Source of the DNA: a virus | Length of the DNA stretch: 32,589 bases | Direction: 5' to 3' (one strand) | Virus record (IMG/VR): IMGVR_UViG_3300027969_003242 | Span: 1 to 32,589 of that record | Shown: in pieces, positions 13,961-26,995 of the stretch | How positions within the stretch are numbered: position 1 is the stretch's first letter | Layout: each line of letters begins with the position of its first letter | Notes under the pieces: generated by a model | Seen by the model: the letters and a program-made list of their open reading frames with translations, nothing else | What the model was told of the DNA's origin: nothing | Database searches by the model: none | Position numbers and translations under genes: made by a program

Positions 13961-15057
13961 GTAAAGAACAATATAATTTAAAAACAAAAACAGACTATCT
14001 TAATCGTAAAATGTTTCTAGATCCAGCAGGCCCAGTTACCATACAACGCTTTGAAGAAGTTAAGTATAAAAAGATTGCAGACTTTGAAGCAACAGCACGT
14101 GGTTTCTTTTGGCAACCAGAAGAAATTAGCCTAACCAAAGATTCAAACGACTTTAAAGAAGCAAGTGATGCTATCAAACATATCTTCACAAGTAACTTGT
14201 TACGTCAAACAGCACTAGATAGTTTACAAGGTCGTGGACCAACACAGGTGTTTACGCCTGTGTGTAGTTTGCCCGAAGTGGAAGCACTGATGTACAATTG
14301 GGGATTCTTTGAAACTAACATTCACTCAAAGAGTTACAGTCATATCATTCGTAATATCTATAACGTACCAAAGGATGTGTTCAATTCCATCCATGATACT
14401 GAAGAAATCATTGGCATGGCCTCTAGTGTGGGAGAATATTACGATGCATTACATGTAATCAACTGTCGTAAAGAAACAGGCGAAAAGATTAATGATCGCA
14501 CACACATTAAGGCAATCTATATGGCATTACACGCTAGCTATGCACTAGAAGCGTTCCGCTTTATGGTTAGCTTTGCCACAAGCCTGGCTATGGTTGAGAA
14601 TAAGATCTTTATTGGCAATGGCAATATCATCAGTTTGATTTTACAAGACGAATTGTTACACAAAGGGTGGACTGCTTATTTGATTAATCAAGTGATCAAA
14701 GAAGATACAAGGTTTGCCGAAATCAAAGGCGAATGTGAACAAGAAGTGTATAATTTGTATATGGATGTTATACGCGAAGAAAAACAATGGGCAGACTATT
14801 TGTTTAAAATGGGTCCTGTAATTGGATTGAACGCTAACATTCTTAAAGACTTTGTAGACTATACAGCAGTGGGCGCACTTAAAGATATTGGTATCAAGTA
14901 CAACAGCCCTGCTCCTAAGAGTACACCTATTCCTTGGTTTAATAAACATGTTAACACAAGCAATAAACAAACAGCACTACAAGAAAGTGAAAGCACCAAT
15001 TATGTTATTGGTGTTATGAGTGATGCATTGGACTATGATGCATTGCCAGCATTATAA
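13957..15057 (+). CDS. nrdB: Ribonucleotide reductase class I beta subunit
   Basis: A 366-residue radical-generating subunit that partners NrdA. Visible features are the first-helix Asp (TALDSLQGRG), the Glu/His and tyrosine region FFETNIHSKSYSHI, the helix with GEYYDALH, the YALEAFRF helix Glu, and LQDELLHK with the last Glu and His ligands. The C-terminal tail (SDALDYDALPAL) is the acidic, aromatic-containing peptide that docks on NrdA. One point to check: Glu precedes His by four residues (ETNIH), while E. coli has three (ETIH), so the ligand geometry may differ or Glu may align differently. It overlaps the small ORF before it; glutaredoxin follows 9 nt later. Confidence 0.95.
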   Translation: MSKEQYNLKTKTDYLNRKMFLDPAGPVTIQRFEEVKYKKIADFEATARGFFWQPEEISLTKDSNDFKEASDAIKHIFTSNLLRQTALDSLQGRGPTQVFTPVCSLPEVEALMYNWGFFETNIHSKSYSHIIRNIYNVPKDVFNSIHDTEEIIGMASSVGEYYDALHVINCRKETGEKINDRTHIKAIYMALHASYALEAFRFMVSFATSLAMVENKIFIGNGNIISLILQDELLHKGWTAYLINQVIKEDTRFAEIKGECEQEVYNLYMDVIREEKQWADYLFKMGPVIGLNANILKDFVDYTAVGALKDIGIKYNSPAPKSTPIPWFNKHVNTSNKQTALQESESTNYVIGVMSDALDYDALPAL

Positions 15058-15066
15058 GAGAAAAGT

Positions 15067-15309
15067 ATGATTACCGTATACAGTAAAAATAACTGTCCAT
15101 TTTGTGACAGAGCAAAAGCATTATTAGAAAGTAAAGAAATTCCATTTCGAGTAGTCAAAATGGAAGATGATCCGGACGCTAGAGAATTCTTAATGGATCA
15201 AGGCTTGCGTTCAGTTCCACAAATTTTCAAGGATGGCATTCTCCTACCTGGAGGCTTTCAAGGCCTAGCTGGCAAAGACGAAGAATTTTTTAACACACTC
15301 AAAGGATAA
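15067..15309 (+). CDS. Glutaredoxin
   Basis: An 80-residue glutaredoxin: ITVYSKNNCPFCDRAKALLE has the CPFC active site (Cys10, Cys13). The cis-Pro motif SVPQIF and the GGFQGLAG glutathione-binding turn are both present. It is the likely reductant of the phage ribonucleotide reductase, as T4 NrdC is in T4. It sits directly after nrdB with an AGAG-type Shine-Dalgarno, and the next gene follows after 2 nt. Length and motifs are complete. Confidence 0.95.
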   Translation: MITVYSKNNCPFCDRAKALLESKEIPFRVVKMEDDPDAREFLMDQGLRSVPQIFKDGILLPGGFQGLAGKDEEFFNTLKG

Positions 15310-16939: not shown

Positions 16940-17320
16940 ATGGCATACAGCGATAAGGTCATTGACCATTATGAAAATCCCCGCAATGTAGGATCGTTTG
17001 CTAAAGATGATCCGACTATTGGAACGGGTATGGTCGGTGCCCCTGCCTGTGGCGATGTAATGAAGCTTCAAATTCGAGTAGAAGACGGAATCATTACAGA
17101 TGCAAAATTTAAGACATATGGTTGCGGTTCAGCGATTGCGAGTAGTTCGTTAGTTACTGAATGGGTTAAGGGTAAAACACTTGACGAAGCGCAACAGATT
17201 AAAAACTCAGAGATTGCAGAAGAACTCGCCCTGCCTCCTGTCAAGATTCATTGCTCTATCCTGGCAGAAGATGCAATCAAGGCGGCTGTAAATGATTACC
17301 GTAACCGAAACAGCCACTAA
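16940..17320 (+). CDS. iscU: Iron-sulfur cluster scaffold protein IscU
   Basis: A 126-residue IscU, the scaffold on which the cysteine desulfurase builds [2Fe-2S] clusters. MAYSDKVIDHYENPRNVGSF is nearly the canonical proteobacterial start. Cluster ligands Cys37, Cys62 and Cys105, Asp39 (ACGD) and His104 are all present. LPPVK (98-102) is the motif recognised by the Hsp70 HscA. Nothing is missing, so it should work with host IscS, HscA and HscB. Its start overlaps a late promoter exit site, giving a leaderless late mRNA. iscA overlaps its end by 29 nt. A complete scaffold gene is unusual for a phage and was probably acquired from a proteobacterial host. Confidence 0.95.
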   Translation: MAYSDKVIDHYENPRNVGSFAKDDPTIGTGMVGAPACGDVMKLQIRVEDGIITDAKFKTYGCGSAIASSSLVTEWVKGKTLDEAQQIKNSEIAEELALPPVKIHCSILAEDAIKAAVNDYRNRNSH

Positions 17321-17618
17321 AAAAATCAAACAGAATTTACAAAAGCGTGGCAAGGGCGTTGGCATACGTTTGGGTGTAAGGACTACCGGTTGTAGTGGAT
17401 TAGCATACACTATCGAATATGTAGATGAATATACAGCAGAAGTTGGCGTAACTAATTATGCCCAAAAAGATTTTGTTGTATTAGTAGATGCTAAAAGCCT
17501 GGCCTATCTGAATGGCATAACAATGGATTGGGTCCGCAATGGACTCAATGAAGGATTTGATTTCATCAATCCAAACGAACGTGATCGCTGTGGGTGTGGC
17601 GAATCATTTAGAGTTTAA
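17292..17618 (+). CDS. iscA: A-type iron-sulfur carrier IscA
   Basis: A 108-residue A-type carrier (IscA/ErpA/SufA family), which passes Fe-S clusters or iron to target enzymes. Conserved cysteines are Cys34 (TTGCSGLAY) and Cys100/Cys102 (RCGCGESF). The body matches the family: ITVTETATKKIKQNL at the start and FINPN before the last Cys pair. It starts inside iscU (29-nt overlap), so the pair is made together. IscS, HscA, HscB and ferredoxin are not in the window and would come from the host. IscA versus ErpA cannot be separated by eye. Confidence 0.93.
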   Translation: MITVTETATKKIKQNLQKRGKGVGIRLGVRTTGCSGLAYTIEYVDEYTAEVGVTNYAQKDFVVLVDAKSLAYLNGITMDWVRNGLNEGFDFINPNERDRCGCGESFRV

Positions 17619-22976: not shown

Positions 22977-22980
22977 AATT

Positions 22981-23026
22981 TGTAGAGCGCCGTAAGGGCC
23001 TACATATTCTTGCTTAATTAAAGGAG
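22981..23026 (+). promoter_or_regulatory. dnaK leader: hairpin plus CTTGC...AAAGGAG element
   Basis: TGTAG (22981-22985) pairs with CTACA (23000-23004) around an inner GCC/GGC stem. TTCTTGCTTAATTAAAGGAG (23007-23026) follows and is nearly identical to the hsp20 leader. Confidence 0.6.
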
Positions 23027-23032
23027 AACAAT

Positions 23033-24943
23033 ATGAGCAAAATCATCGGTATCGACTTAGGTACAACAAATAGCTGTGTAGCAATCCTAGAAAATGGAGT
23101 TGCCAAAGTAATTGAAAACAGCGAAGGTGCTAGAACAACACCATCAATCGTGGCTTACACCAAAGACGAGATTCTCGTTGGTGCAACAGCTAAACGACAA
23201 GCAGTAACAAACCCCAAAAATACAATCTATGCAAGCAAGCGTCTTATTGGACGTAAGTTTGAAGAAAAAGAAGTGCAGAAAGACATTGGCCTAATGCCTT
23301 ACGGTATTGTCAAAGCTGAAAACGGCGATGCATGGATTGAAGCAAATGGCGAGAAATTAGCGCCACAACAAGTGTCGGCTGAAGTACTTCGCAAAATGAA
23401 AAAGACCGCTGAAGACTATCTCGGTCACGAAGTAACACAAGCAGTTATTACAGTACCTGCATATTTTAATGATAGTCAACGCCAAGCAACCAAAGACGCC
23501 GGACGCATTGCAGGCCTAGAAGTTCTGCGCATTATCAACGAGCCAACAGCGGCCGCACTGGCATATGGTGTGGACAAACAAGACAAGAAGGATCGCAAGA
23601 TTGCGGTATACGACTTGGGTGGTGGTACATTTGATATTTCAATTATTGAAATTGCCAACATTGATGGCGACAAACAAATTGAAGTACTATCCACAAACGG
23701 CGACACATTCCTTGGCGGTGAAGACTTTGACCAAGCCATTATGGATCACTTGGTTGCTGTGTTCAAGAAAGAAAGCGGCATCGATCTTAAACAAGACATG
23801 TTGGCCCTACAGCGTTTGAAAGACTCAGCTGAAAAGGCCAAGATCGAATTGTCCAGCGCGGCCAGTACAGATGTCAACTTGCCATACATTACAGCAGATG
23901 CAAGTGGTCCTAAACACTTGAACGTTAAACTTACTCGTGCTAAGTTTGAACAAATGGTCGAAGACTTGATTACTCGTTCGATTGAGCCATGCAAGACAGC
24001 TATGGCAGATGCTAATGTAACAGCCGCAGACATTGACGAAGTTATCCTAGTGGGTGGACAAACACGTATGCCTAAAGTACAAGCCGCAGTTGAGAAACTG
24101 TTTGGCAAGGCTCCACGTAAAGACGTTAACCCGGACGAAGCAGTGGCCGCAGGTGCCGCAGTACAAGGTGCTGTACTAGCAGGCGATAAGACTGACGTGC
24201 TATTGCTAGACGTTACTCCATTGAGCTTAGGCATTGAAACAATGGGCGGAGTGTTCACCAAAGTTATTCAAAAGAACACAACTATTCCAACCAAAGCCAG
24301 CCAAACATTCAGCACTGCTGAAGACAATCAACCAGCTGTAACTATCAAAGTTGGACAAGGCGAACGTGAACTATTCAAGTTTAATAAGATTCTAGGCGAG
24401 TTTAATCTTGACGGCATTGCACCAGCACCACGCGGCATGCCACAAGTTGAAGTTACCTTTGACATTGATGCAAATGGTATCATGCATATCAGTGCTAAGG
24501 ACAAAGGCACTGGTAAGGAAAATAAGATTACTATTAAATCCGATAGCGGTTTAACAGAAGCTGAAATCCAACGCATGGTACAAGAAGCTGAACAAAATGC
24601 AGAGTCTGATAAGAAAGCCAAAGAGCTTATCGAAGCACGTAATCAAGCTGATGGTGCTACTCATAGCTTTAAGAAAGACTTTGAAGAAGTTAAAGAACAA
24701 TTGACCGAAGAAGAAAAGACTGCCGTCGAAACTGCACTTAAAGGTGTAGACGATGCAGTTGTTGGAGAAGATCCAGAAGCTATTCAAAAGTCAGTACAGA
24801 ATCTTTTTGAATCAGGCAAGCCTGTATTTGAAAAGAAACAGGCCGCAGAGGCCGCAAAGAATGCCGCACCAGCTGACCAACCTGCCGAAGGTCAAACAGT
24901 GGATGCGAGCTTCACAGAAGTTGACACACCCACACAGAAGTAA
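23033..24943 (+). CDS. dnaK: Full-length Hsp70 chaperone DnaK
   Basis: A 636-residue DnaK, as long as bacterial DnaK (638 in E. coli). The ATPase domain shows [34 protein letters not shown] and [13 protein letters not shown]. The interdomain linker is [16 protein letters not shown]. The beta-sandwich and helical lid are complete, ending in a disordered Ala/Pro tail. It folds client proteins with DnaJ and GrpE, neither of which is encoded here, so host partners are implied. Possible uses are folding virion proteins, host takeover, or IscU cluster transfer. It has a late-type box, a 5' hairpin and AAAGGAG, so high expression is expected. A complete Hsp70 is rare in phages; it probably came from a proteobacterium. 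Confidence 0.97.
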
Positions 24944-24949
24944 TATAAT
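24921..24949 (+). promoter_or_regulatory. Sigma70 promoter for hsp20
   Basis: TTGACA (24921-24926), 17 bp, TATAAT (24944-24949). It lies in the last dnaK codons and just after the stop. Predicted +1 is 24956. Confidence 0.85.
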
Positions 24950-24956
24950 ACAAACA

Positions 24957-25004
24957 TACAGGACGCCTAAATGGGTCCTGTAAAGTTCTTGCTTAATAAA
25001 GGAG
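24957..25004 (+). promoter_or_regulatory. hsp20 leader: 5'-terminal hairpin plus CTTGC...AAAGGAG element
   Basis: A perfect 8-bp stem TACAGGAC / GTCCTGTA (24957-24982) begins one base after the predicted +1. TTCTTGCTTAATAAAGGAG follows, as in the dnaK leader. Confidence 0.65.
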
Positions 25005-25010
25005 ACTAAC

Positions 25011-25427
25011 ATGCAACTAAGAACTATTGACACTGCCGCTTTGGCACAACTAAGTAAAGCACTAGTAGGATTTGATCGTTATTTTAACGTACCAAGTCAT
25101 GTAAACGGAAACTACCCTCCACATAACATTGTGAAGTATGATGATACACACTATGGAATTGAAGTGGCGGTTGCTGGTTTTAGCAAAGATGAAATTACTG
25201 TAGAAATTGATCAAGATCAATTGTTAATTACAGGTAAGAAATTTGCTAATACAGACACAGTGGAATACTTACATCGTGGCTTAGCCGCTCGTGACTTTGA
25301 ACAACAATTTACTCTAGCTGAGTATATGGAAGTTCGAGGTGCAGAAGTTAAGGACGGTATGCTTAAAATTGAAATCGAGCGTATTGTTCCTGAAGCTCTT
25401 AAACCACGTCAAATCACAATTAAATAA
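25011..25427 (+). CDS. hsp20: Small heat-shock protein (IbpA/Hsp20)
   Basis: A 138-residue alpha-crystallin-domain chaperone close in style to IbpA. The N-terminus ends YPPHNIVKYDDTHYGIEVAV, then AGFSKDEITVEIDQDQLLIT, the signature EYLHRGLAARDFEQQFTLAE, the strand GMLKIEIERIVPEALKPR and the tail QITIK. It holds unfolded proteins for DnaK to refold, so it pairs naturally with the dnaK gene just upstream. Hsp20 genes are known in T4-like cyanophages. It has a consensus sigma70 promoter (early) and a structured leader that could act as a stability or temperature element. Confidence 0.95.
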   Translation: MQLRTIDTAALAQLSKALVGFDRYFNVPSHVNGNYPPHNIVKYDDTHYGIEVAVAGFSKDEITVEIDQDQLLITGKKFANTDTVEYLHRGLAARDFEQQFTLAEYMEVRGAEVKDGMLKIEIERIVPEALKPRQITIK

Positions 25428-25437
25428 AGTAAATAAC

Positions 25438-25461
25438 AGTGGAAGAGGCAACTCTTCCACT
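25438..25461 (+). promoter_or_regulatory. clpS leader hairpin
   Basis: A perfect 10-bp stem AGTGGAAGAG / CTCTTCCACT with a GCAA (GNRA) tetraloop, 11 nt after the hsp20 stop and 16 nt before clpS. There is no T run, so it is not a normal terminator. TAAATA boxes at 25421-25435 could start RNA just before it. Confidence 0.6.
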
Positions 25462-25477
25462 AACCCGGAGAACTAAA

Positions 25478-25780
25478 ATGGCAGGCACTGATATCCAACT
25501 AGACGAAAAAATTAAGGTTACTGTACAAGAACCTAAACGTTGGAAAGTCATAGTACTTAATGACGACGCAACTCCTATGGATTTTGTAGTTGGCGTACTG
25601 GTAGAGATTTTCAAGCATACTGAAAATACTGCTAGAGATATAATGATCACTGTACACGAGCAAGGCGCTGGCATTGCAGGAGTATACAGTTTTGAAATTG
25701 CTGAAGCAAAGGCTGTTGAGTCAACTCAACTTGCTAGAACCAACGGGTTTCCATTACAAATTAAATTGGAAGAAGAATGA
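25478..25780 (+). CDS. clpS: ClpS, N-degron adaptor of ClpAP
   Basis: A 100-residue ClpS. After a 20-residue tail comes RWKVIVLNDDATPMDFVVGV, then MITVHEQGAGIAGVY and FPLQIKLEEE. The N-degron pocket residues Asn28, Asp29 and His60 are present. ClpS binds ClpA and delivers proteins with Leu, Phe, Tyr or Trp N-termini, and inhibits other substrates. A phage copy could redirect host proteolysis. The GTG at 25439 also opens the frame, but the ATG at 25478 follows CCGGAG. Its stop overlaps the heme oxygenase start (ATGA), so the two proteins are coupled. Confidence 0.93.
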   Translation: MAGTDIQLDEKIKVTVQEPKRWKVIVLNDDATPMDFVVGVLVEIFKHTENTARDIMITVHEQGAGIAGVYSFEIAEAKAVESTQLARTNGFPLQIKLEEE

Positions 25781-26322
25781 GCTTAAAAGACTTAACATGG
25801 GAACATCACAAATACGCTGAAACACGCCCGTTTGTTAAAGTATTATTTTCAGGTAAGATTACACCAGAAGCATACGCTACATACTTGTTTAATCAACATA
25901 GATGCTACGACTTGTTAGAAGCTATGGCAATGATGCATGGCTTGATGAATGACTATCCTGCTATTCGTAGAGCTCCTGCTATTCATGCAGACTTTTTAGA
26001 GCTATGGACAGATAAAGAAAAACTACCAAATCAAGTTCCAACAGTACAACGCTATCATGATCATTTAATGGCTATTAAAGATGATCCTAAAAAATTGCTG
26101 GCCCACCTGTATGTTAGACACTTTGGAGATCTATCCGGCGGGCAAATGATTGCCAAACGTGTTCCTGGCGCAGGCAAGTATTATCAGTTTGACGGAGATC
26201 CAGTTGAAATTAAAAACTTGCTTCGTGCTAAACTGGATGACAGTCTAGCAGAAGAAGCGGCTGTATGCTTTAAATTTGCGGCAGATATGTTTGACGACTT
26301 AGAAAAGGAAGTCAATGAGTAA
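25777..26322 (+). CDS. hemO: Heme oxygenase
   Basis: A 181-residue heme oxygenase, which opens heme to biliverdin, releasing CO and iron. The proximal His motif is HHKYAE (His11, as H-x-x-A-E in the family). The distal helix is YVRHFGDLSGGQMIAKRVPG, with the hallmark GDLSGG (117-122). Length and helical pattern are normal for bacterial HO. It is coupled at both ends: ATGA overlap with clpS, 8-nt overlap with the bilin reductase. This adjacency means the product is probably passed on to a bilin. It needs electrons from host ferredoxin or flavin. Cyanophages carry ho1, but nothing else here suggests a photosynthetic host. Confidence 0.93.
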   Translation: MSLKDLTWEHHKYAETRPFVKVLFSGKITPEAYATYLFNQHRCYDLLEAMAMMHGLMNDYPAIRRAPAIHADFLELWTDKEKLPNQVPTVQRYHDHLMAIKDDPKKLLAHLYVRHFGDLSGGQMIAKRVPGAGKYYQFDGDPVEIKNLLRAKLDDSLAEEAAVCFKFAADMFDDLEKEVNE

Positions 26323-26995
26323 AGTCTGGGATACACTAATAGGTATACAGCAGTTATTAGAAGAAAGTTTTGATGCCACTGGCACAGAAACATTCGAGCC
26401 CGGCATGGATCGATTCAATCAACCCGGTTGGGTTAACAGAGTTTGGACAAGTGAAGCATATCGCAGGGCACACGTTGATGTTGTGGATGCCCGTGAATCA
26501 AAAGGACTTTGGATGATGCACTGTTGCATTTTCCCACACACTCATAATCCTGCTCCAATATACGGCTTTGATGTTATTGCTGGTAAGAACAAAATTACCG
26601 GCTGTTTTCATGATTATTCAAAAGCGGGCGATGCTGATCACCCGATGATGTCTTGGTTTGCAGATGAAGTAGCCAAACTAGAATGGCGCAGAGAACGTGC
26701 CCTTCCTGAGTGGGCTACTAACATATTCAGCGGTAGTATGGTAGCCGCGGCCAATGTACAAGATGAAGCAGAACTGGAACAAATTACAAATCTAGCTAAA
26801 ACCACTGTAGCACACTATCTAAGCACAGTAGCTGAAACTAACAATACAGCAATAGATACTACACAAGCACAGAATTACTACGCACAAAATCAAAAGTGTA
26901 ACCCCCATACACCGCGTGTAATGGTCAGTTTAGGGCTTAGTGAGGAAGATGTCCAGCATTTCATACAAGAATGCCTGTTCCCTGAAATAGTATAA
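26315..26995 (+). CDS. pcyX: Ferredoxin-dependent bilin reductase (PcyX/PebS-like)
   Basis: A 226-residue FDBR that reduces biliverdin with ferredoxin electrons. Family motifs: RVWTSEAYRRAHVDVVDAR, then KGLWMMHCCIFPHTHNPAPI, then YGFDVIAGKNKITGCFHDYS and MMSWFADEV. His69 and Asp86 match the paired His/Asp of PcyA-type active sites. A short N-terminus and this length recall PcyX, described from oceanic phage metagenomes as making phycoerythrobilin and found beside hemO; I rely on memory for that. Exact product specificity cannot be read by eye. It overlaps hemO by 8 nt, so heme-to-bilin conversion is one coupled unit. Confidence 0.9.
   Translation: MSKVWDTLIGIQQLLEESFDATGTETFEPGMDRFNQPGWVNRVWTSEAYRRAHVDVVDARESKGLWMMHCCIFPHTHNPAPIYGFDVIAGKNKITGCFHDYSKAGDADHPMMSWFADEVAKLEWRRERALPEWATNIFSGSMVAAANVQDEAELEQITNLAKTTVAHYLSTVAETNNTAIDTTQAQNYYAQNQKCNPHTPRVMVSLGLSEEDVQHFIQECLFPEIV

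Follow-up and report, generated by a model that had tools for sequence, protein, structure and literature searches.

The genes clpS, hemO and pcyX of this virus form the 3′ end of a block of five genes, dnaK-hsp20-clpS-hemO-pcyX, and this block is best read as an early stress operon of RaK2-like aquatic jumbo phages, in which the heme step would serve iron and redox balance; we give this reading a probability of about 0.55, and it overlaps with two others weighed below, one centered on the bilin product and the other on plain synteny. The window, that is, the whole stretch of DNA analyzed, is an IMG/VR virus record of 32,589 bases, probably a fragment, and the block comprises the following features:

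23033 to 24943, plus strand: dnaK (636 aa), with which the block begins; NCBIfam DnaK equivalogs at 4.5e-294 and 5.5e-273, above cut-off
24921 to 24949, plus strand: sigma-70 type promoter, TTGACA-17-TATAAT, in the 3′ end of dnaK and reading into hsp20; 12/12 consensus bases
25011 to 25427, plus strand: hsp20, small heat-shock protein, 138 aa, adjoining clpS in relatives; Pfam HSP20 9.6e-18
25437 to 25462, plus strand: RNA hairpin with a GCAA loop, between hsp20 and clpS
25478 to 25780, plus strand: clpS, N-degron adaptor, 100 aa, with an ATG start behind GGAG; Pfam ClpS 2.3e-28
25777 to 26322, plus strand: hemO, heme oxygenase, 181 aa; Pfam Heme_oxygenase 9.3e-19
26315 to 26995, plus strand: pcyX, ferredoxin-dependent bilin reductase (FDBR), 226 aa; Pfam Fe_bilin_red 1e-13

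The ORFs for ClpS, the heme oxygenase and the FDBR are intact at 25478-26995, where the original prediction had placed them, and each Pfam match exceeds its cut-off; the description of the three genes as fully overlapping was overstated, the overlaps being only 4 nt between clpS and hemO (ATGA) and 8 nt between hemO and pcyX. Median dN/dS values of 0.16 for clpS, 0.13 for hemO and 0.09 for pcyX indicate purifying selection, and the mean identity among relatives is 0.82 for PcyX vs. 0.54 for HemO. Chance or broken ORFs are ruled out by the Pfam matches, the dN/dS values and the invariant residues. The gene identities, catalytic residues, order and overlaps, as well as the promoter, the hairpin and the ClpA, ClpP and AlaS of the relatives, are shown by the sequence itself.

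When IMG/VR was scanned with the reductase as query, 381 relatives were returned, and the order dnaK-hsp20-clpS-hemO-pcyX is nearly universal in the best 79 of them. Among the fetched relatives, clpS lies directly upstream of hemO for 60 of the 62 distinct HemO proteins, which bears out a conserved clpS-hemO-pcyX order and excludes a single-genome oddity, and the exact ATGA overlap is present in 50/62. The scan with ClpS gave more than 500 matches, and in the best 80 of these hemO stands behind clpS except in four (L205, L206, L210, L243), where the sequence stops a few hundred bases past clpS. The three-gene order is kept at only about 50% PcyX identity in two contigs (L304, L305), and with one insertion in a third (L306), all three lying in bacterial assemblies and looking like misbinned phage; the linkage is old, since the order persists down to such identities. 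Trees built with FastTree from 170 distinct loci and rooted at the midpoint show two to three changes in the context of clpS, with the caveat that the contigs are only partly independent. Loci with apparently two pcyX or two dnaK genes are explained by frameshifts, gaps in the assembly or a small remnant. In four further contigs (L037, L044, L053, L080), a divergent HemO (GDLFGG or GDLNGG, 37–41% identity to window 25777-26322) occupies the slot between clpS and pcyX, the latter being 77–88% identical, so that the replacement in place hit hemO alone.

Each half of the arrangement also occurs by itself. Isolate Callisto carries hsp20-clpS-sodB and dnaJ-clpA and no heme genes, and isolate Phosso carries hsp20-tk-clpS; one study (PMC6102473) reports ClpA, ClpS, ClpP and DnaJ for Atu_ph07 and conservation of ClpA among RaK2-like phages, and no ClpS-bearing jumbo phage isolate was found among the hemO matches. 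Conversely, hemO adjoins pcyX in 73 of 80 marine Mosig-type loci and clpS is present in none of the 80, 58 of which extend 500 bases or more upstream; the hemO of Mosig follows, with overlap, a 2OG-Fe(II) oxygenase gene. Two contigs of T4-like phages (L065:5619-7498 and L039:2-2215) hold a pcyX 84–86% identical to that of the window and a divergent hemO, upstream of which lies a 2OG-Fe(II) oxygenase gene or, in L039, a halogenase-like gene, both names being read from the sequence. On the trees, the T4-like phages cluster with the jumbo clade by their pcyX and not by their hemO; because these contigs combine a jumbo-clade-like pcyX with a different hemO, pcyX is able to move without hemO, and since hemO overlaps other genes in Mosig and L039, the overlap with the upstream gene is no specialty of clpS. 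Judged by these contexts, hemO-pcyX is a separate, mobile cassette, and an obligate mechanism joining ClpS to heme is unlikely because each half occurs and works without the other.

The same loci bear on the possibility that the arrangement is purely historical, hsp20-clpS and dnaJ-clpA being a proteostasis set and a mobile hemO-pcyX having docked once behind clpS, with no functional link. This is possible, though less likely than not: Callisto and Phosso keep their clpS loci free of hemO, hemO has docked with overlap behind the oxygenase gene of Mosig and the halogenase-like gene of L039, and the few context changes on the trees need no function by themselves. Nevertheless, the order and mostly the 4-nt overlap survive the fall of hemO to 32% identity, and divergent hemO versions replace hemO in place, both of which suggest selection for the arrangement. 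As a separate observation, in the isolate genome of Shewanella surugensis DSM 17177 (L307:5447-6222) a heme oxygenase gene overlaps a pcyX-like ORF that is truncated, with transposase-like genes nearby, possibly a bacterial remnant of a cassette regarded as phage-only.

Putative expression signals lie on both sides of hsp20. Upstream of hsp20, 11 or 12 of the 12 promoter bases are found in 31 of 57 distinct relatives vs. 0.14% of shuffled sequences, and early transcription by the host RNA polymerase appears probable because a perfect sigma-70 promoter precedes hsp20; the T4-type late promoter TATAAATA was counted 4 times vs. 2.6 expected, which is not significant. The hairpin between hsp20 and clpS is found in all 58 distinct relatives, with loops mostly of the GNRA type, and covaries, with double changes at 10/10 pairs (score 0.272 vs. 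0.144 shuffled, 0/500); its folding energy is −16.8 kcal/mol (z −2.9), and an Rfam search gave no match. It may act as a stabilizer, a processing site or a partial terminator, and it marks off clpS-hemO-pcyX as a single unit of overlapping genes. By eye, short hairpins are also seen before the ribosome-binding sites of hsp20 (24958-24981) and dnaK (22980-23005), and the source phage may make general use of intercistronic hairpins. Downstream of pcyX, at 28775-32264 of the window, lies a curli-type cluster, conserved behind pcyX in many relatives, with CsgF (4e-16), CsgG with an SH3-like tail (4e-53), a FecR-domain protein and a secreted protein with repeats that match the curlin repeat weakly, at 0.001, narrowly missing the cut-off. 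Curli clusters of pelagimyophages have been reported without CsgA/CsgB (PMC7029224); the window protein at 30551 could be a CsgA/CsgB-like subunit.

The residues predicted for the two heme enzymes are present. His11 and the GDLSGG motif of HemO are as claimed, and His11 and GD-x-x-GG are invariant in 62/62 distinct relatives; the AlphaFold model (pLDDT 93.8) matches HmuO and HO-1 with a TM of about 0.85, so that sequence and model assign HemO to the all-helical heme oxygenases of the HO-1/HmuO type. For a related phage enzyme, CB_2 vHemO, the conversion of heme into biliverdin IXα has been shown (PMC11480375). In the FDBR, His69 and Asp86 were confirmed and His53-x-Asp55 was found in addition, all four residues being conserved in 62/62 distinct relatives. 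The PcyX assignment holds: the reductase matches the solved PcyX_EBK42635 (PDB 5OWG) at 6.1e-69 and PcyA at 1.2e-13, and Asp55 is specific to PcyX (Wegner et al. 2024, PMC11480375), the CB_2 phage FDBR, which lacks it, making phycocyanobilin (PCB; PMC11480375). Residues and similarity thus exclude a PcyA identity and place the enzyme with the PcyX type, a four-electron FDBR, whose predicted product is phycoerythrobilin (PEB) because Asp55, a PcyX residue, occurs in 62/62. The enzyme identities and catalytic residues support the proposed logic of heme opened by HemO and reduced by the FDBR, the two very probably turning heme into a pink bilin. Among 13 large contigs of relatives (155 to 400 kb), a plant-type ferredoxin was found in none and a bacterial 4Fe-4S ferredoxin in three (e.g., L266:8390-8713), the latter a candidate donor for PcyX and HemO; as the phage ferredoxins are only of the 4Fe-4S type and in 3/13 contigs, the electron donor probably comes from the host.

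ClpS, which aligns to solved ClpS structures, has the domain with the N-degron pocket (Asn-Asp, Met, His) and an N-terminal extension; Asn28, Asp29, Thr32, Val37 and His60 of the pocket are invariant in 62/62 and Met34 is present in 59/62, pointing to an adaptor predicted to dock on ClpA and to deliver N-degron substrates. ClpA is encoded by 11 of the 13 large contigs, with an invariant IGFG ClpP-binding loop and TIGR02639 as the nearest model (about 1e-265, below the curated equivalog cut-off), and a ClpP-family protein by 10, of which eight matches are strong (NF001368 9e-94, above cut-off), the others being possibly head proteases. With ClpA in 11/13 and a bona fide ClpP in at least 8/13, ClpS therefore has phage-encoded partners, which weakens the case for host ClpAP as its sole partner; the Aat transferase, which would complete an N-degron pathway, is absent from 13/13. 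The large relatives carry a dnaJ-(def)-clpA cluster, def being peptide deformylase, with the order dnaJ-deformylase-clpA conserved (L258-L268); the deformylase could influence which N-termini turn into N-degrons. ClpA with DnaJ and ClpS with Hsp20 occur in genomes over 200 kb, namely in relatives of 212–400 kb, the window itself being a fragment; the relatives are jumbo phages, and the exonuclease-like protein of the window is nearest to RaK2-like jumbo phages.

In the preferred reading, the host polymerase would transcribe the block early, as a stress and takeover operon. DnaK and Hsp20 would keep proteins soluble, and ClpS would pass N-degron and aggregated substrates to ClpAP, of which ClpA and usually ClpP are encoded elsewhere in the phage genomes of this lineage, ClpA adjoining dnaJ and often def. 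HemO would convert heme into biliverdin, iron and CO, and PcyX would turn biliverdin, with four electrons from ferredoxin, into PEB, draining it to a reduced, antioxidant bilin, while the iron from host heme would feed the phage NrdB ribonucleotide reductase and IscU/IscA. The link between ClpS and the heme enzymes would consist of shared expression and translational coupling, extending at most to a proteolysis of hemoproteins that releases heme, and not to HemA. We infer the reactions in the source phage, the bilin made, the iron or redox purpose, the early timing and any functional ClpS-heme link, and iron and redox housekeeping is the most likely benefit. Not far from the block, at 16940-17618 and 10898-15309, the window encodes IscU, IscA-type Fe-S genes, nrdA, an Fe/Mn superoxide dismutase, nrdB and glutaredoxin, and thus a class I ribonucleotide reductase (NrdA/NrdB); NrdAB and IscU/IscA are conserved in a distant relative of 400 kb (G006). 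In Callisto, the slot after clpS also holds a redox gene, since sodB follows hsp20-clpS there.

Iron salvage fits poorly where phages also make heme: AlaS, which bypasses HemA, is encoded by 6 of the 13 large contigs and was not seen in the 32.6-kb window, a fragment, and G006 (399,796-base contig; L260, L271, L281, L282, L308) holds AlaS, HemC, HemE and ferrochelatase together with HemO and PcyX within phage sequence, that is, much of heme synthesis plus its breakdown in one phage. As making heme to break it frees no net iron, the bilin is the likelier goal in such phages. The cassette could accordingly be part of a line for PEB, made up of AlaS, host enzymes, HemO and PcyX, with iron merely cycling and the bilin acting as an antioxidant, a light screen, a signal or a chromophore altering a bilin-binding protein of the host; this, too, is possible though less likely than not, and slightly less probable than plain synteny. 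Besides AlaS and the G006 enzymes, PcyX as the most constrained protein speaks for it, its higher conservation relative to HemO (0.82 vs. 0.54) indicating that the bilin matters as well as the iron, and so does the separate movement of pcyX, the T4-like phages sharing their pcyX with the jumbo clade and not their hemO. AlaS is, however, missing in 7/13 large contigs, which may be incomplete, no PHY domain occurs in any of the 13, which speaks against a phytochrome as bilin acceptor, and no bilin-binding partner was found.

The proposal that ClpS adjusts heme supply through HemA is unsupported, given the phage ClpA and ClpP, the halves found apart and AlaS in 6/13. According to this proposal, ClpS would steer ClpAP onto host HemA and so tune the heme available to HemO-PcyX; it draws, by analogy, on the reported turnover of bacterial GluTR (HemA) by Clp and Lon and the binding of plant GluTR1 to ClpS (PMC6597238), and phage AlaS could substitute for the destroyed HemA. 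Nevertheless, ClpS occurs where hemO is lacking and hemO where clpS is lacking, the pocket of ClpS is of the generic N-degron kind and less heme synthesis would starve HemO, making this the least probable of the readings considered. Hardly more probable is that phage ClpS-ClpA-ClpP, together with DnaK, DnaJ and Hsp20, would unfold and degrade hemoproteins of the host, or else HemA, whose place the feedback-free phage AlaS would take, the translationally coupled HemO-PcyX turning the released heme into iron and PEB; if true, a single operon would for the first time couple N-degron proteolysis with heme catabolism.

Singly, hemO-pcyX, valaS and the ClpS/ClpA of jumbo phages are already known. 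In a literature search covering mainly papers outside subscription, no phage paper was found to join clpS to hemO or pcyX, nor were the fixed five-gene operon, the ClpA/ClpP of its genomes, the covarying hairpin or PcyX at such scale. According to PMC11480375, the reason for which hemO-pcyX is retained by phages whose hosts lack phycobilisomes is still open. The data narrow the search for it to stress, iron and redox in the course of jumbo-phage infection, with hemO-pcyX stably kept by a large clade of jumbo phages, placed within a protein-quality-control operon, and with phages of this clade that supply ClpA, often ClpP and sometimes AlaS. To our knowledge, PcyX-type reductases have so far been reported from marine viruses only; they are extended here to many further contigs of a clade that we take to be of freshwater origin, judging from the literature and IMG sample numbers.

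Compared with known systems, the Bradyrhizobium ORS278 island hemO-pcyA-alaS-bphP likewise brings heme oxygenase, FDBR and AlaS together (PMC11480375), although it is bacterial, of the PcyA type and with a phytochrome, a protein not found in the 13 large contigs of the present clade. The Clp set of jumbo phages (the PA5oct group, e.g., Callisto; Atu_ph07; RaK2-like) resembles the present one in that ClpA adjoins dnaJ and ClpS lies next to or near hsp20, with ClpP in Atu_ph07, but no heme oxygenase or bilin reductase was found there and sodB or other genes follow clpS. The marine cassette (PcyX_EBK42635; pelagiphage Mosig EXVC030M) shares the overlap of hemO with pcyX, a reductase 50% identical with Asp55 and hosts without phycobilisomes; it differs by the lack of clpS, dnaK and hsp20, by 2OG-Fe(II) oxygenases and ferrochelatase upstream and by a T4-like genome of 141 kb. 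The valaS-hemO-pcyA/X loci of aquatic phages, including the freshwater phage CB_2 (Wegner et al. 2024, PMC11480375, whose main text does not mention Clp), combine AlaS, HemO and an FDBR, as do 6 of the 13 large relatives. In both, hemO and the FDBR stay together with alaS elsewhere, a "broken cassette"; whereas the CB_2 FDBR without Asp55 leads to PCB, Asp55 is invariant in the present clade and PEB is the predicted product.
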